The notes: a model not told the origin generated them from the sequence alone. 64,000 nt of DNA from Chryseobacterium populi (GCF_000282115.1 NZ_AKJY01000014.1:62001-126000); one strand, 5' to 3'; numbered from the stretch's first letter, positions 52,841 to 64,000 are shown. Numbers and translations: made by a program.

Positions 52841-53668
52841 ATGCAAAATTATTTAGAATTCAATTTCAAAATTTCTCCATTACAACCCTGGAACGAAATA
52901 TTAATGGCAGAGCTTATCGAAATAGGTTTTGACAGTTTCACGGAAGAAATTGATGGTATTTTAGGATATATTCAGAAAGATTTATTCAATGAAAATGAAC
53001 TTAAAACTCTTCCTCTTCTTGAAAATGAAAATGTAAAAATTGAATACTCTTTCCAGGAAATGCCTAATATCAACTGGAATGAAGAGTGGGAAAAGAATTT
53101 TTCACCGATAAATATTGATGATAAAGTTTTGATCAGAGCAGAATTCCATGAATCTGTACCCGGAATGCATGAAATTGTGATTCAGCCTAAAATGTCTTTC
53201 GGAACCGGGCACCATCCTACAACCCATCTGATGATCCAGCAGATGATGGATATGGATTTAAACAGTAAAAAAGTGCTGGATATGGGGTGCGGAACTTCCG
53301 TACTGGCAATTTATGCAAAACAGAAAGGTGCAGGTGATGTAAAAGCCATTGATATTGATGAATGGTCAGTTGAGAACTCAAAAGAAAATGCAGAAAGAAA
53401 TAAGGTTGAACTGGATATTGAACAGGGAACTGCCGAAAATTTGGGAAAAGAGAATTTTGATATTATTCTGGCTAATATTAACCGTAATATCCTGATTTCA
53501 GATATTCCAACATATGTATCTGTTTTGAATAAAGGTGGAAAATTATTGCTTTCGGGACTGTGCTTTTTTGATGCAGATGATATTCTTGAAGTCTGTAAAG
53601 AAAATAGCCTTGAATTGAAAAAGCAGTTGCAGCGTGAAGAATGGGTAAGCTTGTTACTCGAAAAATAA
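52841..53668 (+). CDS. prmA: Ribosomal protein L11 methyltransferase
   Basis: 275 residues from ATG 52841. The N-terminal L11-recognition region (about 1-95) has the usual WNEEWEKNFSPI. The SAM-binding methyltransferase domain has QPKMSFGTGHHPTTHLMI, VLDMGCGTSVLAIYA, AIDIDEWSVENSKENAE and ILANINRNIL. It trimethylates lysines of ribosomal protein L11. It ends next to a secreted SH3-like gene whose candidate starts (53668 or 53686) touch its stop. Confidence 0.93.
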   Translation: MQNYLEFNFKISPLQPWNEILMAELIEIGFDSFTEEIDGILGYIQKDLFNENELKTLPLLENENVKIEYSFQEMPNINWNEEWEKNFSPINIDDKVLIRAEFHESVPGMHEIVIQPKMSFGTGHHPTTHLMIQQMMDMDLNSKKVLDMGCGTSVLAIYAKQKGAGDVKAIDIDEWSVENSKENAERNKVELDIEQGTAENLGKENFDIILANINRNILISDIPTYVSVLNKGGKLLLSGLCFFDADDILEVCKENSLELKKQLQREEWVSLLLEK

Positions 53669-53685
53669 TGATTAAAAGAAGGAAT

Positions 53686-54528
53686 ATGAAATCCTTACTG
53701 ACTGTTTTATTTTTATTGGCTATACAATTGATTTCCGCTCAGGAAGAAGAGATCGTATATGCTGATGGCGTTTTCGGATTTGAAGAAAATAAGCCCCAGA
53801 AAATATTTACAGACCAGGCAAGACTGAGATTGGATCCCAACGTAAATGCTCAAATACTGGATTCTTTAAAAACCAATCAGCAGGTTCTCATTCTTAAAAA
53901 AGATGAAGCGGTTTTAAAACTGGGTGAAAGAAGGGCAAACTGGTATAAAATATCCTGCCAGAAAGGAGATAAGACTGTAGAAGGCTATATTTGGGGTGGA
54001 AATCTCTGTGTTGGTTACCGGAATAAAAACGGCTATGATTTTCTGTTCGGCCTTTCAAAGACGGAAACCAGGAAAAACAAACAGTCTGGAGAAAATTATC
54101 AGCAGAATATTGCAAGTATAAAACTGGTTGAAGGAAATACTCTGGTTGATGAGGTTTTCTTTGATACGGGGAGAGGAGAAGAATTGAGCTATGGGACATT
54201 CAATGTAGAAAGTAATCATAAATTACAAAACGTGGAATTAACCCTGAAAGCGATGGTCTCAGGAGAAGCCTGCGGAATTGCGAGTTATGATCAGTATGTG
54301 CTTTTTAAAGATAAAAAACTCATTACTTTGCCTCAGCTGACGAATGTAGGCGATGCAGATGTATACTATCACGGTGAAAAGTTTATATTTCCGAATGATA
54401 AAGGAGGAATTTCCAATGCCTTTATTTTTAAAATGGAGGAAATGGAAAAAGATGATCATGATAAAGAAAAGAAGAAACGCTCGTCTAAAACTTATCTTTG
54501 GAACGGAAATTCCTACAGATTGAAATAA
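53686..54528 (+). CDS. Secreted SH3-like domain protein
   Basis: 280 residues from ATG 53686, which gives a clean signal peptide (MKSLLTVLFLLAIQLISAQ). An ATG at 53668 overlapping the prmA stop would add six basic residues. The N-terminal mature part (about 35-110) is a bacterial SH3-type fold (ARLRLDPNVNAQILDSLKTN, then YIWGGNLCVGY), often binding peptidoglycan or substrates. The C-terminal ~150 residues are beta-rich and unrecognised, ending in a charged KEKKKRSSK stretch. It is probably cotranscribed with prmA. Confidence 0.7.
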   Translation: MKSLLTVLFLLAIQLISAQEEEIVYADGVFGFEENKPQKIFTDQARLRLDPNVNAQILDSLKTNQQVLILKKDEAVLKLGERRANWYKISCQKGDKTVEGYIWGGNLCVGYRNKNGYDFLFGLSKTETRKNKQSGENYQQNIASIKLVEGNTLVDEVFFDTGRGEELSYGTFNVESNHKLQNVELTLKAMVSGEACGIASYDQYVLFKDKKLITLPQLTNVGDADVYYHGEKFIFPNDKGGISNAFIFKMEEMEKDDHDKEKKKRSSKTYLWNGNSYRLK

Positions 54529-55297: not shown

Positions 55298-55305
55298 TAT
55301 TTTTG
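55298..55305 (+). promoter_or_regulatory. -7 promoter element of a small gene (TATTTTTG)
   Basis: Fits TAnnTTTG, 19 bp before the ATG at 55324. The preceding 55095-55297 stretch shows no gene. Confidence 0.55.
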
Positions 55306-55323
55306 ATTTTAAGTTTAGTTAAA

Positions 55324-55536
55324 ATGAAAATATTGTCTTTTTATGAATTTACACAACTGTCAGAAATTGAGCAATATAACCTGGTTTTTGAGAAAGGCAG
55401 GCTTATCAGTTCTTCATTGAAAGGCGATATTGAGTTTACACTATATGAATTATTTAATTTTTATGTTGAAGTGGCCTATCATTCTAAAGATAATAAAGTA
55501 ATTAATCTTAACAGATATATGAAAATTCAAAATTAG
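55324..55536 (+). CDS. Small cytosolic protein, unknown function
   Basis: 70 residues from ATG 55324, directly behind a good -7 element; the longer frame at 55303 would begin inside that promoter. Content such as MKILSFYEFTQLSEIEQYNL and FTLYELFNFYVEVAYHSKDN suggests a compact alpha/beta protein rich in Tyr and Phe. I recall similar hypothetical proteins from Chryseobacterium but no function. Monocistronic. Confidence 0.6.
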   Translation: MKILSFYEFTQLSEIEQYNLVFEKGRLISSSLKGDIEFTLYELFNFYVEVAYHSKDNKVINLNRYMKIQN

Positions 55537-55610
55537 AGAACATAATTTGCCGGAGATTATAAATATCCATATTATTTTTAATCATTAGCTTAATACATAA
55601 AATAAAACCC

Positions 55611-55997
55611 ATGCCTTTTGTAGAAATCTATTGTGGAGCACATTTCACTGCCGGCCAGAAACAATAAATTTCCTTTGCTATTCATGAAAGCTTAATCGAA
55701 GTAATCCGGATACCGGAAAATGACCTGTTTCAGGTGTTCCTCCGTCCCGTAGCCACAGAAGATTTTATCTTCTCTGAAAACTATATGGGGATATCCCACA
55801 CTACAGACCTGCTTTATATACGCATAACCCTGCGTACCGGGCGACCTGTGGCCCTGAAGCAGGCACTTTATCAGAAGATTGCTGCTAATATCTCAGTCAA
55901 AACATCGGTAGGCCAGAATGATGTAATGATCATCCTGGTAGAAAACAACGATGGCTGCTGGTCATTCGGTGACGGCGAGGCTCAATATCTCGTATAA
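55611..55997 (+). pseudogene. Tautomerase-family gene broken by an in-frame stop
   Basis: From ATG 55611 the frame reads MPFVEIYCGAHFTAGQKQ, meets TAA at 55665-55667, then continues in the same frame ISFAIHESLIEVIRIPENDL, VFLRPVATEDFIFSENYMGI and on to CWSFGDGEAQYLV. Pro right after Met and the ending WSFGxGEAQYL fit tautomerases of the Tautomerase_2 type, in which the N-terminal Pro is the catalytic base. One nonsense change is the only visible lesion, so the inactivation is recent, or it could be a sequencing error. Confidence 0.72.
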
Positions 55998-56180
55998 ACG
56001 ACAAGGTTTGGGACACAGATCTTTATTGGTCTTAGATACATTCGATTTTCCTATACAGCATATTCAAACTAATTGGGAGGCGGATTTTTTTAATTATTCC
56101 TTTAACATGGCCATAAAGTACCACCATATGATTAGTAAAGTAGAAAGAACATTCTTCTAATAGGAGAATAAGAGATTTTA

Positions 56181-56942
56181 CTAAATTTTTATTAAATATT
56201 TATATAATTTCAATATTTTTTTTATTTTACGCTTAATAAGAATTGCATTTGTTGCTTGAACAATTTTTTTGAAACAGTATTCAGGGGGAATGTCAGATAG
56301 TAATGCATATTCTTCGGAAATAATTTTGATAATTGTTACATCATTTGTTAGTCGGGCGAAATTTCTGAGCCGTTTATCAATTTTAATATGATCATAAAAA
56401 TTCATTCTGTTTAAGTCTACGATATAAATACAATAAATATCACCTTCCTTTTTTATTAAAAAATTGTTAGGGGAATTATCAATAAATTCGATACCATCGT
56501 TGTGTAAACGGTACATCAATAATGTATATTCTTTAATAATTCTTTCCCTTTCAGGAAACGATGTTTTGCTAAGAACATCTGTTAAAGTCCATGTATTTTC
56601 AAGTTGTTCGCTTATGTAATAACTTGAGGTTAGACCAATAACGTCATGATTTTCAATGTATGCAATAGGCTTTGGTGTATAATAATTTTTACCTATAAGC
56701 ATGTTTGCATATTCAAAAGAACGTCTGGCTTTAGACTTTCGATAGAATTTATAAATATGCCTATTAATAATATTATGCTGTTTAAAGGATTTAAAATTTA
56801 AAATTAAGCCATTGAGATTAAAAAATTTGATAATATTCCTACTACCGTTACCTATAAGAGTCCCGTCATTTTTAAATTTTTTTAAAATGGATAGAATTTC
56901 ATATTTGTATTGTGATACATCTTCGGCAAATATCGATTTCAT
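56181..56942 (-). CDS. Lipopolysaccharide core kinase-like protein (Kdo/WaaP family)
   Basis: 253 residues, cytosolic and basic, with a protein-kinase-like fold of the Kdo/WaaP type. RSFEYANMLIGKNYYTPKPI resembles the N-lobe helix, GIEFIDNSPNNFLIK the catalytic loop (Asp and the Asn five residues later), and YIVDLNRMNFY the metal-binding DxxR segment. The usual HxD of the loop is FID here. It would phosphorylate lipid A-core sugar. It lies 14 bp after the family 9 glycosyltransferase, a natural partner in LPS core assembly. Confidence 0.78.
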   Translation of the reverse strand: MKSIFAEDVSQYKYEILSILKKFKNDGTLIGNGSRNIIKFFNLNGLILNFKSFKQHNIINRHIYKFYRKSKARRSFEYANMLIGKNYYTPKPIAYIENHDVIGLTSSYYISEQLENTWTLTDVLSKTSFPERERIIKEYTLLMYRLHNDGIEFIDNSPNNFLIKKEGDIYCIYIVDLNRMNFYDHIKIDKRLRNFARLTNDVTIIKIISEEYALLSDIPPEYCFKKIVQATNAILIKRKIKKILKLYKYLIKI

Positions 56943-56956
56943 ATAGTTTATTTAAA

Positions 56957-58003
56957 TTAGATGTGCATCATCGTTTCATGAAGTAAATCCATAATATTCT
57001 GGCTATTTAAACTTCGTGTATTAATAGAAAAACTGTTATTATTATATGGCCTATAAATAGTCTCATCAGTAACTGAGAATAATCCTATTGTAGGCGTTCC
57101 GGAGGCACTGGCTAAGTGCATGACACCATTATCTGCTGCAATAAATAAATTAGAATTTGCAATCAAGCCTCCCATCTCCCGGATATCAGTACTGTAGAAA
57201 AAAGGGATGGTGAAATTTAATTTCGAAATATTTTCGACAGGTAAAAGTTCAATAATATTATAATCAGGAAAGTTTTGCTTTAGCTGACTGTAAAATTCAT
57301 TCCACCAGCTTTCAGAATAGCATTTGTCACCTGTTGCATTGGTAAAAAGGCAAATAGTTTTTTTATCATTTTTTACCAGGTCAAATAGTTTTTTCTTTCC
57401 AATTTCTACCTCTTCCCGGCTTAGCTTCAGATCCAAAGAGGGAACTTCGTTTGGGTTTTCAGGGATCCCCAATTTTGTTAAGTATTGTCTCAGGTTATAT
57501 ACACTGTTTTTAGCAGAATGGTGGTAATCCGGAAATTTTGCAGAATAACTTTCATCAATGTCGCCAAATAACTTATATTTTGAATTTGCAAAAAGCGTAG
57601 ACAATCTTCCGGATGATGATCCAAAACTTGCATTGATAACCAAATCATATTTTTGGGTTTTAATGGAGATCCATCCATTTACATATTTTAATATATTGCT
57701 AAACGGTCTTTTTGGAAGTTGGATAATTTTACCAATATTCGGATAATTTTTGTAAATAATGGGAGTGATGCCACCCTTAACAAACAGATCAATTTTACTG
57801 TCAGGAAAAGTGCTGATAACCTCCTGAACTAAGGGAGTAAGCAAAAGTAAATTTCCTAATCTGTGATTTGGCCTGGAAATTAATATTTTTTTTATTTCGA
57901 TTTTTTTTTTGAGATTTATTTCTGTATTTGACCTTCCTATGTTTTTAGTCAGATTCCTCATTATAGACCGCCTAATAATATTTATACTTTTGGGTATTTT
58001 CAT
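56957..58003 (-). CDS. Glycosyltransferase family 9 (LPS heptosyltransferase-like)
   Basis: 348 residues with two Rossmann-like halves. SRPNHRLGNLLLLTPLVQEV marks the N-terminal acceptor side, and FIAADNGVMHLASASGTPTI the C-terminal nucleotide-sugar binding loop typical of family 9. A basic N-terminus without membrane helix suits attachment to the inner membrane surface. It transfers a core sugar (ADP-heptose in classical members) onto LPS. It is the first gene of the pair with the Kdo/WaaP-like kinase. Confidence 0.87.
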   Translation of the reverse strand: MKIPKSINIIRRSIMRNLTKNIGRSNTEINLKKKIEIKKILISRPNHRLGNLLLLTPLVQEVISTFPDSKIDLFVKGGITPIIYKNYPNIGKIIQLPKRPFSNILKYVNGWISIKTQKYDLVINASFGSSSGRLSTLFANSKYKLFGDIDESYSAKFPDYHHSAKNSVYNLRQYLTKLGIPENPNEVPSLDLKLSREEVEIGKKKLFDLVKNDKKTICLFTNATGDKCYSESWWNEFYSQLKQNFPDYNIIELLPVENISKLNFTIPFFYSTDIREMGGLIANSNLFIAADNGVMHLASASGTPTIGLFSVTDETIYRPYNNNSFSINTRSLNSQNIMDLLHETMMHI

Positions 58004-58121
58004 AAAAAATATTTAAAAACGGGTACAATTTAAGTTAAAAAATAAAGCAAATAATTACTATTAGCTTTATTTTCAATTATAATTATTTATGAAAATGATA
58101 GATATAAATTATTAGAATCTA

Positions 58122-58283
58122 ATAAAATTTTTCCTAAAATTATTTACTGCAATATTATGCACCGGATTAATCAGTATTTCATTAGGCGGATGTAAATTAT
58201 ACTTTGTTAATCTTAGTGGGATTTCGAACTGCCGTTCAGTGGTAATTACATGCCTACTGAAGCACTTTCAGACTAATAAATAG
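58122..58283 (+). pseudogene. Possible lipoprotein gene remnant
   Basis: In one frame the bases read KFFLKLFTAILCTGLISISL then GGC, a convincing lipoprotein signal peptide and lipobox (LGGC), followed by about 30 residues without character and a stop. There is no ATG, GTG or TTG in a suitable place; the frame opens with CTA-ATA-AAA after a TAG. I take it as a decayed N-terminus. The stop lies 8 bp before the 32-bp repeat at 58291. Confidence 0.3.
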
Positions 58284-58290
58284 TGTCTCC

Positions 58291-58322
58291 TTAAGTGAGC
58301 GCGAAAGGATTCGGACCTTTGA
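58291..58322. other. Left attachment-site-like repeat (3' end of tRNA-Arg)
   Basis: These 32 bp match 62641-62672 at 31 positions (G for A at 58314). The right copy is the 3' part of tRNA-Arg plus 5 bp downstream. A distal partial tRNA copy with the intact tRNA at the other end is the standard footprint of an integrated element. Confidence 0.75.
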
Positions 58323-58616
58323 ATGATAAAGTCTCTCAAATACGGAGGTGTAGTAACTTGTTGCGGCAATGTGGCATCCGGGGACTTGGCTACAAGCATT
58401 TATCCCTTTATTTTGAGAGGGGTCAGATTGATTGGCATAGATTCCGTGGAGCAGCCATTATCATTTAAAGAGGAAATATGGAGCTTTCTTGCCGATGATT
58501 TCAAACCGGATTTTTTATCAGAAATGGTACAGGTCATTTCAATTGACAATCTGCCGGAGGCACTGAAGATAATCCTTAAAGGAAGTGCTGAAAAGCGTTT
58601 TGTCGTAAAACATTAA
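58323..58616 (+). pseudogene. C-terminal fragment of a YhdH/AcuI-type quinone oxidoreductase
   Basis: 97 residues, against about 330 for the family. LKYGGVVTCCGNVASGDLAT, FILRGVRLIGIDSVE and EALKIILKGSAEKRFVVKH are the C-terminal half of the NADPH-binding domain. A stop codon (58320-58322) that belongs to the tRNA repeat lies directly before the ATG, and family similarity begins within a few codons of the repeat. The gene was therefore cut at the repeat junction. It cannot form an active reductase. Confidence 0.75.
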
Positions 58617-58683
58617 CTGATAAAATCCTCATAGGCTAATACATTGAAGTTTACTTTGTTTCAGAAATTTCGATTCGCTTAGC

Positions 58684-59090
58684 CTACTTCGTGTAGTTTT
58701 CTCTTGCCTGGTTTAGCTCATTGCTGTTACGGGCAATCCATAACCAAAGTGGAGTAACCTGCACCAATAAGCCACGACCTAAAGTTGTTAATTCGCGTAT
58801 TCTACTTTTGGCGGAACTTCGGGATGGACGGTCCTTAAAATGAGACCGTCTCTCTCCAGTTCGCGCAGGCATTTGGTCAACATCCGTTGACTGATACCCT
58901 TAATGTGGTTCTCCAGGTTTGTAAAACGCATTTTACCATCTATTCCCAACGCGTGAATGACAAAGAGTGACCATTTGTTGCCGACATGATTTAGTATATC
59001 ATGTTTGAGCTGATCCTGTTCTTTGTTCAGTACCTTGCAAATGTCGTCCCAGGCATTTACGATTTCTTCGTCCGTCATCAGTCTTTCCAT
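58684..59090 (-). pseudogene. HxlR-family regulator with C-terminal frameshift
   Basis: From ATG 59090 the winged-helix HxlR domain is intact: HVGNKWSLFVIHALGIDGKM, RFTNLENHIKGISQRMLTKC, LRELERDGLILRTVHPEVPP. The frame then ends at KVEYAN. In the next frame it goes on ELTTLGRGLLVQVTPLWLWI to the stop at 58684, restoring the usual KVEYELT-LG. The break is two extra bases, CG, next to another CG (TACGCGAATTA for TACGAATTA). The shortened protein keeps the DNA-binding part. It is divergent from the NmrA-like gene, a usual HxlR target layout. Confidence 0.78.
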
Positions 59091-59287
59091 AAAGTATATT
59101 TAATGCTAATAAAGATAGATTTTTCTGATGAAAAAACTTTTGCCAAAAGGAACTTTATAATAAAGATGCATTTAGAAAATAAAATTTGACCTTCATTTAA
59201 AATTAATGTGACTAAAACTCAAAAAACTAACATCGATGTAAGTAGCTCACAATGAGGTATCTTATTGTTTTTGGGGTTTGAAGGTGG

Positions 59288-59295
59288 TAATTTTG
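59288..59295 (+). promoter_or_regulatory. -7 promoter element of the NmrA-like gene (TAATTTTG)
   Basis: Fits TAnnTTTG, with TTG-rich sequence (TTGTTTTTG) about 20 bp upstream as a possible -33. It faces the HxlR gene across a 174-bp divergent region where the regulator would bind. Confidence 0.55.
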
Positions 59296-59348
59296 CATAT
59301 GAAAAAGAATTCATTAGGATAATGGATTCAAATTGTAATTATTTTAAT

Positions 59349-60284
59349 ATGGAAAATATATCAGTTTTAATTTTGGGCGCAGGCGAGTTAGGTATGCCTG
59401 TTATCCGAAATATATCAAAAAAAGCTAAAAACTATAATAACGTCACAGTAACCGTACTGCTGAGAGAAGCAACGATCAACTCTGAAGATCCGGAGAAGAA
59501 AAAGAATGTTACAGAGATCCGGGAATTGGGTGTGGAATTGCTTGCGGGCGACCTGTCCGCTCCCTCTTCTGAGCTTATTGATATTTTCAGAAATTACGAC
59601 GCTATTGTTTCGTGTACAGGTTATGGAACAGGCGCAGGAGGTTTTCAGCTGAAGTTGGCCAATGCGGTTATTGATGCCGGTGTCAAAAGATATTTTCCCT
59701 GGCAGTTCGGAGTGGACTTTGAAGTGATAGGGCGGGGAAGTGCGCAGGATCTTTTTGATGAGCAGCTTGATGTGAGAGAGCTTCTGAGATCACAAAGTGC
59801 CACAAAATGGGTTATTATTTCCACAGGTATGTTTACCAGTTATCTTTTTGAACCGTTCTTCGGCATTTTAGATCTGGAAAATAGATCGGTCAATGCTATA
59901 GGTGGATGGGATACGGCAGTTACATTGACCACACCGGATGATATTGGCCGGCTTACTGCTGAGATTTTCTTTACAGAACCACAGATCGAAAATGAGATCG
60001 TCTATATCGCCGGCGATACGATTACCTACGGAGATCTGGCTGATATTGCAGAATCATTATCAGGCCGGAAGTATGAGCGTACACTTTCTGATATGGAAGA
60101 GATTACAGATGATCTTAAAAACGATCCTACCAATTTTGTTAAAAAGTACCGTTCTATATTCGGAGCAGGAAGAGGTGTTTCCTGGCCGCTGGAGAATACC
60201 TTCAATGGCAAGAAAGGAATTCCGACAACCTCCGCTAAACAATGGGCAAAAGATAATATTGATTGGGAATCTTACAGTAGATAG
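59349..60284 (+). CDS. NmrA-like/aromatic alcohol reductase-type NAD(P)-binding protein
   Basis: 311 residues from ATG 59349. An ATG at 59322 is possible; the frame opens at a TTG at 59265, upstream of the promoter. The NADP loop SVLILGAGELGMPVIRNI is at the start, followed by GDLSAPSSELIDIFRNYDAI, then FPWQFGVDFEVIG and TGMFTSYLF, as in isoflavone-reductase/NmrA relatives. It acts as a cytosolic reductase or redox sensor; the substrate is unknown. Divergent from the HxlR gene inside the tRNA-bounded segment, it is probably cargo. A terminator follows. Confidence 0.82.
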   Translation: MENISVLILGAGELGMPVIRNISKKAKNYNNVTVTVLLREATINSEDPEKKKNVTEIRELGVELLAGDLSAPSSELIDIFRNYDAIVSCTGYGTGAGGFQLKLANAVIDAGVKRYFPWQFGVDFEVIGRGSAQDLFDEQLDVRELLRSQSATKWVIISTGMFTSYLFEPFFGILDLENRSVNAIGGWDTAVTLTTPDDIGRLTAEIFFTEPQIENEIVYIAGDTITYGDLADIAESLSGRKYERTLSDMEEITDDLKNDPTNFVKKYRSIFGAGRGVSWPLENTFNGKKGIPTTSAKQWAKDNIDWESYSR

Positions 60285-60326
60285 TAATCAGAGTATAGAT
60301 GATCAAATAATCATAATTAAAAAAAG

Positions 60327-60372
60327 ATGACCGAAAAGGGATGATACGTACTTTTTTCGGTCATTTATTTTT
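60327..60372 (+). terminator. Terminator of the NmrA-like gene
   Basis: ATGACCGAAAA (60327-60337) pairs with TTTTCGGTCAT (60354-60364), followed by TTATTTTTAT. The remaining bases to 60642 hold no gene or clear promoter. Confidence 0.8.
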
Positions 60373-60642
60373 ATGCTGTATCGTAATAAATGCAAAGTTA
60401 CATTATTGATTCACTGAAACTCATAAATGGCTGATTCCAACTTTCACTGGAGTTGTATAGATTAAAATCTCCTTAAAAAAATCCCTGGTGCCGAAATCTA
60501 AGCATATCCGAAGCAGTCTTTTCAAAATAGCATAAAAGCCATTTTGTAAAAACATGTATATAAACTCGTCAAATAAATTGTTCTATTTTTCGTTTGAATA
60601 TAAAGTAGCTTTAACTAAAGGACTTTAATTAATACCTACACC

Positions 60643-62220
60643 ATGCAAGCCGTTTATCTGTACATACGAGTCAGTACTGATGAACAGGCTGTAAAAGGAT
60701 ATTCCCAACGCAGCCAGTTGGATCGACTTGTGCACTATTGTAAAGATCACAATCTCATTGTTACTAAAACTATTTTCGAAGACTATTCTGCGAAAACATT
60801 TAACCGGCCAGAATGGAACAAACTGTTCGCTGAACTTAAGCTCATTAAAAATCAATCTTCACTTATTCTCTTTACTTATTGGGATCGATTCAGCCGCAAT
60901 ATTATGGACGCTTATAAGATGTTAGAAAGATTGCAGAATATGAAAGTCTCCATTCAGGCAATTGAACAGCAGATAGACTTCTCAATCCCGGAAAGTAAAA
61001 TTATGTTGGCAATGTATTGGGCTACTTCTGAAGTAGAAAACGATAAAAGAAGCCGTAATGTGCGTTTGGGAATGCAAAAAGCAAGACTGGAAGGAAGATG
61101 GATCAACAAAGCTCCTCTAGGATATAGAAATAAAATCACATCTGATGGAAAAAAATATATAGCCCTCTACGAACCGGAAGCATATATTATCCGTGAGGCT
61201 TTTACAGCTATAGTGAGACAAAATAAATATTGTTTAACTGAAATATACAAAGATGCGGTATCAAATGGGCTTAATTGCAGTAGAAGTGCTTTTTACCGGC
61301 TGGTAAGAAATCCTATTTATTGTGGTAAAATAAAAATTCCGGCATTCGAAGATAAAGCTGAAAGAATTGTTGAGGGTACTCATGAGCGTCTTATACCAGT
61401 AATATTATTTGATCAGGTTCAAAGAATAATAAAAGGCGCAGATTTAAACCATCCTAAGAAACTAACTTCAAAAAGGATAGTCAATGAAAATTTAATTTTT
61501 AGAGGTGTCCTACAATGTCCTAATTGTGGAAATACGCTTACAGGAAGTGGATCGCAGGGACATACTAAAAAATATTATTATTATCACTGTGTGGGACTCT
61601 GTTCATACCGGATAAGAGCCGACCTTATCAATTTAAGTTTTCTCTCATTTCTTAAGAACAATAGAGTGGTAGAACCATTTTTAGAACTTGCCAATAGTAT
61701 CTCAAAGGAAATTTACGGTGAAGAACATCATGATTATATTCAGAAAAAAGAGGAGATAAAGAAAGAAATGGAAAAATTGATTGATAGGGGATTCAATGCA
61801 CAAAAGCTATTTTCAAATGGGAATATTGACTATGATGATTATAAACTAATAAGAAGTCGTTGTCAGGAATCTTTAAAAGATAATACTGATAAATTGAGAC
61901 AGCAGGCTTTAAAAATAGTGGCTGAAAAACACACAGAAAAGGGAACTGATTACATAATTAACCACTTAGGGGAGTTTTATGAAAATTCAGATACTATAAC
62001 CAAACAGAGAATTATCAGGTTGTTTTTTCCGGAGAAAGTAAAAGTAATAGAAGGGAATATTGAAAAAATGCTATCAGAAAGTGTTAAGACTATATTTGGA
62101 TTAACTGCTTCAGCTTCGAAAATAAAAGAAATCCATGGTCAGCAGACAGAGCAAGCAATAGTTGAATTTTTTAAAGAATTATATTTTTTAGGGTATGAAC
62201 AAAACTTAAAAAATATCTAA
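60643..62220 (+). CDS. Large serine recombinase
   Basis: 525 residues. The resolvase domain carries the catalytic Ser11 in YLYIRVSTDEQ, with further active-site residues in YWDRFSRN and SEVENDKRSRNVRLGMQKAR. A recombinase domain follows (about 165-265; APLGYRNK, FYRLVRNPIYCGKIKIP), then a zinc ribbon (LQCPNCGNTL at about 290 and HCVGLCSYRIR), and a coiled-coil-rich C-terminus (about 350-525). Such enzymes integrate and excise mobile DNA through a phosphoserine link. It is the only recombinase between the two tRNA-Arg repeats. Length and motifs look intact. Confidence 0.92.
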   Translation: MQAVYLYIRVSTDEQAVKGYSQRSQLDRLVHYCKDHNLIVTKTIFEDYSAKTFNRPEWNKLFAELKLIKNQSSLILFTYWDRFSRNIMDAYKMLERLQNMKVSIQAIEQQIDFSIPESKIMLAMYWATSEVENDKRSRNVRLGMQKARLEGRWINKAPLGYRNKITSDGKKYIALYEPEAYIIREAFTAIVRQNKYCLTEIYKDAVSNGLNCSRSAFYRLVRNPIYCGKIKIPAFEDKAERIVEGTHERLIPVILFDQVQRIIKGADLNHPKKLTSKRIVNENLIFRGVLQCPNCGNTLTGSGSQGHTKKYYYYHCVGLCSYRIRADLINLSFLSFLKNNRVVEPFLELANSISKEIYGEEHHDYIQKKEEIKKEMEKLIDRGFNAQKLFSNGNIDYDDYKLIRSRCQESLKDNTDKLRQQALKIVAEKHTEKGTDYIINHLGEFYENSDTITKQRIIRLFFPEKVKVIEGNIEKMLSESVKTIFGLTASASKIKEIHGQQTEQAIVEFFKELYFLGYEQNLKNI

Positions 62221-62360
62221 AAATTGATTGATTAGTTTTTGATTTTTCAGAGTAAAGCTGATATTTTAAATTATATTTATATAAAACGCTGAAAAACAAG
62301 TTTTTGCGGGGCGTTTGAAGTGTACGAGATCCTGTATAGATAACTTGATGGGCTTGACTT

Positions 62361-62444
62361 TTCGAACCTTTTGTACCACAGGAAAAAAATGATTTTAATA
62401 TATGGTTGATTTTCAGTTATTTAATATTTTTGAAAAGGTTCGAA
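62361..62444. repeat. 12-bp inverted repeat downstream of the recombinase
   Basis: TTCGAACCTTTT (62361-62372) and AAAAGGTTCGAA (62433-62444) are perfect inverted arms 60 bp apart. Eleven bases, TTCGAACCTTT, also occur in the tRNA-Arg T-arm at 62660-62670, and with one change at the left repeat. It may be a recombinase recognition site, or T-arm similarity may be incidental. No gene is seen in 62221-62602. Confidence 0.5.
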
Positions 62445-62602
62445 TCCTGTCAGGTTCGTAGCAACAATATGGAGCTTTAATCGAAAAATCCTCTAAAAAA
62501 GATAAAACATTTGTTTTTTAATAAAAAATTTTTGCTTTAAAAAATAAGGTAAAAGGATGAAAAATACTCTAAATAGACTGAATCACAAGTATTTATAAAT
62601 AA

Positions 62603-62642
62603 AATGACACCATTTGGCCTAAATTGTCCTAATGGTGTCATT
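62603..62642 (-). terminator. Terminator of the tRNA unit
   Basis: AATGACACCAT (62603-62613) pairs perfectly with ATGGTGTCATT (62632-62642). Read leftward, it directly follows tRNA-Arg and runs into TTTTATTTAT. Confidence 0.75.
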
Positions 62643-62645
62643 AAG

Positions 62646-62719
62646 TGAGCGCGAAAGGATTCGAACCTTTGACCGTCTGCTTAGAAGGCAGATGCTCTAT
62701 CCAGCTGAGCTACGCACCC
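62646..62719 (-). tRNA. tRNA-Arg (anticodon TCT)
   Basis: A 74-nt cloverleaf on the minus strand. The acceptor stem is GGGTGCG/CGCGCTC, the D-arm GCTC...GAGC, the anticodon arm TCTGC-CTTCTAA-GCAGA giving anticodon TCT (Arg, AGA codons), and the T-arm AAAGG-TTCGAAT-CCTTT. No CCA is encoded. Its 3' end is duplicated at 58291, so this gene is the integration target of the neighbouring segment. Confidence 0.93.
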
Positions 62720-62763
62720 TTAAAAGTTGATTCTCGCCTAGTTCAATAAGCGCGTTAAAAAAG

Positions 62764-62838
62764 TCGGGGCGGCAGGATTCGAACCTGCGACCTCCTGGTC
62801 CCAAACCAGGCGCGATGACCGGACTACGCTACGCCCCG
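62764..62838 (-). tRNA. tRNA-Pro (anticodon TGG)
   Basis: About 75 nt on the minus strand. The acceptor stem is CGGGGCG/CGCCCCG, the anticodon arm CCTGG-TTTGGGA-CCAGG giving anticodon TGG (Pro), and the T-arm GCAGG-TTCGAAT-CCTGC. It lies 44 bp upstream of tRNA-Arg on the same strand, so the two are probably one transcript. The stretch from here to 63140 shows no gene. Confidence 0.93.
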
Positions 62839-63800: not shown

Positions 63801-63834
63801 CAAAAAAACTTACAATTTATTGTAAGTTTTTTTG
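63801..63834. terminator. Long hairpin terminator
   Basis: CAAAAAAACTTACAA (63801-63815) pairs with TTGTAAGTTTTTTTG (63820-63834) around TTTA. It can work in both directions. The 63835-64000 tail shows no gene I can support. Confidence 0.75.
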
Positions 63835-64000
63835 TGAACTTGATGGGATTATCCTCAAACTCCTTAGCTGTTGATCTTAATTGGGTTTTACGGGTATTTT
63901 GTTGAGTTTTATACTTTTTTAATGTATAATAATTGTTAGATTTGGATGCCGAATTTGGTATGTAATCCATAGACGGTTAAAAAGAAAATAAAAGGACGAA

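Follow-up and report, generated by a model that had tools for sequence, protein, structure and literature searches.

A very probable composite island of tRNA-targeting serine integrases, reduced by deletion, at the tRNA-Arg(TCT) genes of Chryseobacterium populi

The tRNA-Arg locus and its genes

The window analyzed here, a stretch of 64,000 nucleotides, comes from a Chryseobacterium populi draft genome of 4.48 Mb in 119 contigs. The whole analysis consists of sequence comparison, and this is how both types of element end, the core length, the 5-bp shift, the missing left end, the synteny of empty sites and the deletion junction described below were established. The window carries a direct repeat of 32 bp with one mismatch, TTAAGTGAGCGCGAAAGGATTCG[G/A]ACCTTTGA, at 58291-58322 and 62641-62672 (spacing, 4350 bp), as the original prediction had claimed; extended from 58285 and 62635, the repeat reaches 38 bp with 92% identity. 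The sole other site in the window that resembles it is the T-arm of the adjacent tRNA-Pro, with nine mismatches. The right copy lies, again as predicted, inside an intact tRNA-Arg(TCT) gene (62645-62719, minus strand), whose partner, tRNA-Pro(TGG), occupies 62763-62838 on the same strand (both called by ARAGORN).

Only four ORFs were found between the two copies, namely, a reductase fragment, an HxlR regulator, an NmrA-like reductase and an integrase, and relaxase or conjugation genes, looked for as marks of an ICE or IME, were absent from the segment. The reductase fragment (58321-58616, plus strand) retains the 3' portion of a gene for a quinone/zinc-type reductase, the cut falling at about residue 234 of 330: its ORF of 97 aa corresponds to the end of a 330-aa enzyme in genome G005, with 91.5% DNA identity from 58321 onward and no match before. 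The HxlR gene (58684-59090, minus strand; PF01638) is frameshifted, with an ORF of 100 aa and the remainder in another frame, versus an intact form of 134 aa in G005. The NmrA-like NAD(P)-binding reductase (59352-60284, plus strand; PF05368) is intact and 97% identical in G005, where the complete reductase stands beside the same HxlR and NmrA genes. All three genes had been recognized in the original prediction, including the truncation and the frameshift.

The serine recombinase, which had likewise been predicted, is an intact protein of 525 aa (60643-62220, plus strand) with Resolvase catalytic, Recombinase and zinc-ribbon domains (Pfam PF00239, PF07508 and PF13408) and the invariant motifs YIRVST and WDRFSRN. 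Its predicted structure, a model of moderate quality (pLDDT, 74; pTM, 0.41), contains two long helices (residues 344 to 391 and 397 to 440), as sought for a coiled coil, and its best full-length fold matches are serine integrases, including those of phiC31, Bxb1 and Listeria. On these features, the recombinase is a large serine integrase, with predicted catalysis between attP and attB. The gene belongs to a conserved module composed of the integrase and the right-end region (60529-62644, plus strand), to which homology begins at 60529 at each of the loci L003 to L008 and in G020, with 87 to 96% identity. About a dozen Chryseobacterium genomes contain close copies of the integrase (91 to 98% identity), which adjoin tRNA-Arg(TCT) in 8 of 14 cases, and more distant copies are found in 105 of the 173 genomes of the genus. 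When phage and plasmid collections were searched for a close relative, only matches of less than 60% identity were returned, which are uninformative.

Element ends and the origin of the 32-bp repeat

The left repeat copy had been taken to be a tRNA 3' end and to mark the left edge of the island. The first claim stood for 28 nucleotides (58295-58322, minus strand), which form the 3' stub, GTGA included, of a lost tRNA-Arg(TCT) copy, but not for the sequence at 58272-58298 (plus strand), which is the inner, right half of the right-end hairpin of another element, followed by TTAA and the GTGA core. This end, referred to as type II, was recognized by a 51-bp match of 94 to 96% identity, and since the hairpin at 58272 is incomplete, its assignment depends on these 51 bp. 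Type II ends are intact at the second tRNA-Arg of this genome and in G069; G010 and G077 have related forms. The second claim failed, as the native flank is a chromosomal ORF of 77 aa (55303-55536, plus strand) that adjoins tRNA-Arg directly in relatives; the empty site of G036 (L069) reads, in order, a homolog of 53641-54528, the 77-aa ORF, the native terminator, GTGA and tRNA-Arg.

Relatives lack the interval 55537-58271 where the native ORF meets tRNA-Arg, and it would thus be what remains of a left element. It contains a tautomerase-like pseudogene (about 55613-55997, read by eye from the sequence), presumably cargo, and genes for a Kdo kinase (56181-56942) and a GT9 glycosyltransferase (56957-58003), both on the minus strand; these two LPS genes are sited elsewhere in G076, G172, G073 and G035. 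A TAA after GQKQ breaks the tautomerase-like frame. No left end belonging to the left element itself was found. Judged by this synteny, the true island spans about 55.5 to 62.6 kb.

At the opposite side, the integrase element ends in a type I right end, composed of a hairpin, TGACACCATT...AATGGTGTCA, TTAA and the GTGA core (62605-62648, plus strand). The same junction was found in G137, G009, G065, G034, G121, G020 and G095, and what lies past it in relatives is tRNA-Arg(TCT), the left arm of another element or, once, a tRNA-Arg-like pseudogene. Left ends in relatives consist of the native tRNA terminator, GTGA and then ACTTGGAAGGATTATCTTCGAACC. Three complete type I elements, with both ends present, were found in G065, G034 and G020; they are 18.2, 9.8 and 11.7 kb long and laid out as native terminator, GTGA and P' arm on the left and as hairpin-TTAA, GTGA and tRNA on the right, and joining their flanks yields a native-looking site as in the empty G036. 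The sequence common to attP and attB in these complete relatives is GTGA only, at the tRNA 3' terminus. Since the right and left ends share only this short core with the empty site, the crossover can be placed at the tRNA 3' terminus. The P'-arm pattern gave 53 matches in 39 of 173 genomes and the reversed pattern none. The left half of attB (the terminator) is not conserved.

These ends bear directly on how the repeat arose. If the 4.35-kb segment were a single insertion by a serine integrase using an unusually long, 32-bp tRNA core, the direct repeat and the intact tRNA on the integrase side would be in line with it. However, every complete relative has a GTGA core and a P' arm that is not tRNA sequence, the segment begins in the middle of the reductase gene, and the stub has the end of another element, not native flank, to its left; we therefore regard a single insertion as very improbable. 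The 32-bp repeat had been a candidate for attL and attR and was dropped once the real ends were found in relatives. The proposal that the serine recombinase itself uses tRNA-Arg thus survives in part: relatives in many genomes bear it out, but the repeat is no att duplication, the core being only GTGA. As the repeat lacks a P' arm, attP and attB sites built from it would be expected to fail.

The original prediction had offered as an alternative that the repeat stems from a tyrosine-integrase element, since lost, and that the serine recombinase came to the site later. Long tRNA 3' repeats are indeed typical of tyrosine integrases. Nevertheless, the segment showed no gene for a tyrosine integrase, its integrase being of the serine type, and the repeat is flanked by two different element ends, the tRNA-adjoining sequence on both sides belonging to classes of serine-integrase elements. 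Earlier use of the site by a tyrosine integrase therefore found no support, the serine integrase family targeting tRNA 3' ends directly, and we rate this explanation as the least probable of those considered.

It could also be argued that the stub arose by decay of a tandem tRNA-Arg copy, without any link to mobile elements, and that the integrase element entered the site in a separate event. Genomes of the genus commonly have tandem Arg-Pro copies, with two Arg-Pro pairs at the locus in G010, G036 and G077 and one in the present genome, and arrays of partial tRNA-Arg copies exist. The stub, however, still bears the end of a type II element, and at 58321 it passes abruptly into about codon 234 of a reductase whose gene is complete elsewhere, making independent decay unlikely.

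Overall, the locus very probably represents a composite island, now decayed, at tRNA-Arg(TCT) genes arranged in tandem, made by tRNA-targeting serine integrases and then affected by a deletion, so that the proposal of a mobile-element locus at tRNA-Arg is borne out. The 32-bp repeat then represents the 3' ends of two paralogous tRNA-Arg copies, which bear right ends from two different elements. In the reaction that we infer, the circular elements of a Chryseobacterium clade of large serine integrases would recombine, through attP, with a tRNA gene 3' end serving as attB. For type I elements such as those of G065 and G020, attP would be P...TTAAGTGA-P' and attB would be terminator-GTGA-tRNA-Arg, with the acceptor 3' strand and T-arm of the tRNA as a half-site; crossover within the shared GTGA would leave the tRNA intact and replace the native terminator by the element's hairpin. 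In the present genome, an element with a type II end would have entered tRNA-Arg copy 1 and the type I integrase element copy 2. A later deletion would have removed most of copy 1, its tRNA-Pro, the left arm of the integrase element and the 5' two-thirds of the reductase gene, leaving a tRNA stub that mimics a long att repeat. We infer this order of events tentatively, as the deletions are represented in a single genome.

In agreement with such a deletion, the right end of the integrase element is present in the window but its P' left end is absent from both the segment and the upstream window; the contig's sole match, at 63834, lies beyond the tRNA pair and belongs to the next tRNA-Arg. With the P' arm gone, the integrase element should be stranded, and the island is probably unable to excise. 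The window thus warns against assuming that a long tRNA repeat next to an integrase is the att site of that integrase.

The match at 63834 is the left (P') end of a neighboring integrase-less unit (63834-64000 within the window, plus strand), which encodes VNLMGLSSNSLAVDLNWVLRVFC, then a stop, and extends to the next tRNA-Arg at window-equivalent position 65466 (C14:127466). This unit has a type II right end at that tRNA-Arg, and the Crp-like and metallo-beta-lactamase-fold genes that it encloses are resident genes in relatives. In G077, a unit of 3.1 kb with NmrA-like, SDR and AraC genes has the ends of type I elements but no integrase, and so does a unit of 4.1 kb with one large gene in G010; such units might be moved in trans. 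The SCC elements of staphylococci are comparable in that they have serine recombinases acting at a gene 3' end, form tandem composite islands and include recombinase-less units, but their target is rlmH rather than a tRNA, and their recombinases belong to different families.

tRNA targeting across the integrase family

Targeting of tRNA genes extends to sister integrases of 37 to 45% identity, among which a tRNA 3' end faces the integrase within 400 bp in 37 of the 40 sampled, the tRNAs being Arg(ACG, TCG, CCT), Gln, Leu and Ser. At the level of the order (246 genomes searched), 30 loci were examined, and 28 of them have a facing tRNA 3' end within 600 bp, with Met, Glu and Asn as further targets; the sisters being mutually related, these counts do not represent independent events. 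The isoacceptors used by this one integrase family number at least nine. Within 20 kb upstream, no left end was found for the sister elements of the Leu and Gln classes or for most of those of the Arg class, apart from one Arg(ACG) candidate; the likely reason is that the elements exceed the stretch searched in length. The type I tRNA-Arg elements carry defense systems in G065, with Gabija (GajA and GajB; L114:7437-11595), and in G034, with Hachiman (HamA and HamB) together with HerA/DUF4297 (L116:5230-11969).

Tandem arrays of tRNA-Arg-like 3' halves of about 60 bp were also observed (L074:2442-3282; L070:18221 and 18578; L119:17727), those in G085 having a period of about 130 bp. One tRNA-Arg-like copy in G128 bears a type I right end, indicating that such copies can act as landing sites.

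Large serine integrases recognize a zinc-ribbon motif that is displaced by 5 bp between attB and attP (PMC3783163). Here, the left arm repeats the T-loop motif TTCGAAC at a distance from the core that exceeds that in the tRNA by exactly 5 bp, so that the ZD motif of attP is 5 bp farther from the center than that of attB. A shift of 5 was the best of 18 offsets in five of five attB/attP pairs, covering Arg(TCT), Arg(ACG) and Leu(CAA), with 5 to 8 of 8 bases matching. If the published model of serine integrases applies, the acceptor-stem strand would be the target of the recombinase domain, and the zinc-ribbon domain would contact TTCGAAC in the T-loop, which attP has 5 bp farther out than attB does. 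The universally conserved T-loop appears to be used as a binding motif, which would explain movement among tRNA isoacceptors.

The family resembles the large serine integrases of the Listeria LI/A118, Bxb1 and phiC31 type in domain order, catalytic motifs, short core and 5-bp ZD shift (PMC3783163), but differs from them in that its targets are several tRNA genes, at their conserved T-arm and 3' terminus, and in that, in most sisters, the integrase ORF appears to traverse attP. Serine recombinases are known at tRNA-Leu from the Mycobacterium AICEs, in an account that calls serine integration at tRNA genes rare (PMC3218068). Those elements are actinobacterial and conjugative, the accessible part of that account reports no gene-through-attP layout, and, as far as that part goes, the at least nine isoacceptors of the present family also set it apart. 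The filamentous phage phiRSM of Ralstonia likewise integrates at a tRNA 3' end, that of tRNA-Ser (UCG), by a serine recombinase, although this is a small resolvase-like enzyme with a 13-nt tRNA-identical core and not a large serine integrase (PMC3816273). We thus find one family at tRNA genes across several families of one order, even though serine integrases there have been called rare.

Integrase reading frames at the core

In 35 of the 40 sampled sisters (L200 to L239), the integrase ORF stays open through the GT(G/A) core and continues in frame into the antisense strand of the tRNA, typically reading the T-arm as G-F/I-E/K-P, and in the order-wide set, 22 of 30 integrase ORFs run into the antisense tRNA at a near-constant distance. 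The left arms encode, in the same frame, a conserved tail of about 23 to 26 residues (V.L.GLSSN.L..DLNWILRVFC and relatives). Over the 12 codons past the binding site, the mean pairwise BLOSUM62 score is 20.2 in this frame versus 6.9 and 2.9 in the other two. None of 5000 column shuffles reached the tail score, but shuffling ignores relatedness, and the frame comparison is the better control. L230, in which a right end and a left arm are joined in tandem, ends in KSSNVGLVNLTVGYSNSFFTDLESVFKLCC, whereas near-identical relatives at tRNA-Arg(ACG) end in KSSNVGLVTSTGFKPVTF; in the Leu group, L017, which has an internal stop, ends in VPITEELSKYLVEDLERISKLSGTNL versus VPRTGIEPVLLRTGV at the tRNA. 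L230, L221, L223, L215 and L219 are among the sisters with through-core ORFs. The genome of the window encodes a second integrase of the family, L277 (G000:C94:6675-8246, minus strand), at tRNA-Leu(CAA), and its ORF reads into the tRNA.

As the ORFs pass through the core and the left arm encodes a tail in that frame, integration would swap the integrase C terminus. We are inclined to think that the integrase gene contains the att site, in frame, within its 3' end: the circular form would encode an enzyme with the conserved tail of about 23 to 26 residues (e.g., VNLTGLSSNSLVADLNWVLRVFC), and integration would exchange this tail for antisense-tRNA residues (e.g., VTSTGFKPVTF). This would remodel the enzyme and possibly constitute a built-in on/off or direction switch, from which the clade of the window would have escaped. 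If the layout is functional, integration rewriting the integrase would be a simple control of direction. No report of attP inside a serine-integrase gene was found in the open-licence literature. The BPs repressor, in the accessible part of its description (PMC4557955), and ORF13 of phiRSS0 (PMC3816273) similarly have attP within a gene, and integration alters the C terminus of the protein, but the proteins concerned are a repressor or regulator, while here it would be a serine integrase that acquires an antisense-tRNA tail.

In the window clade, a TAA precedes the core, the distance from the integrase stop to the core is 424 bp, and the window integrase ends in a predicted helix of its own (residues 500 to 524). 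Within the 424-bp stretch, inverted motifs, TTCGAACC and GGTTCGAA, lie at 62361-62392 and 62413-62444 and are conserved in relatives, making them possible candidates for extra integrase-binding sites.
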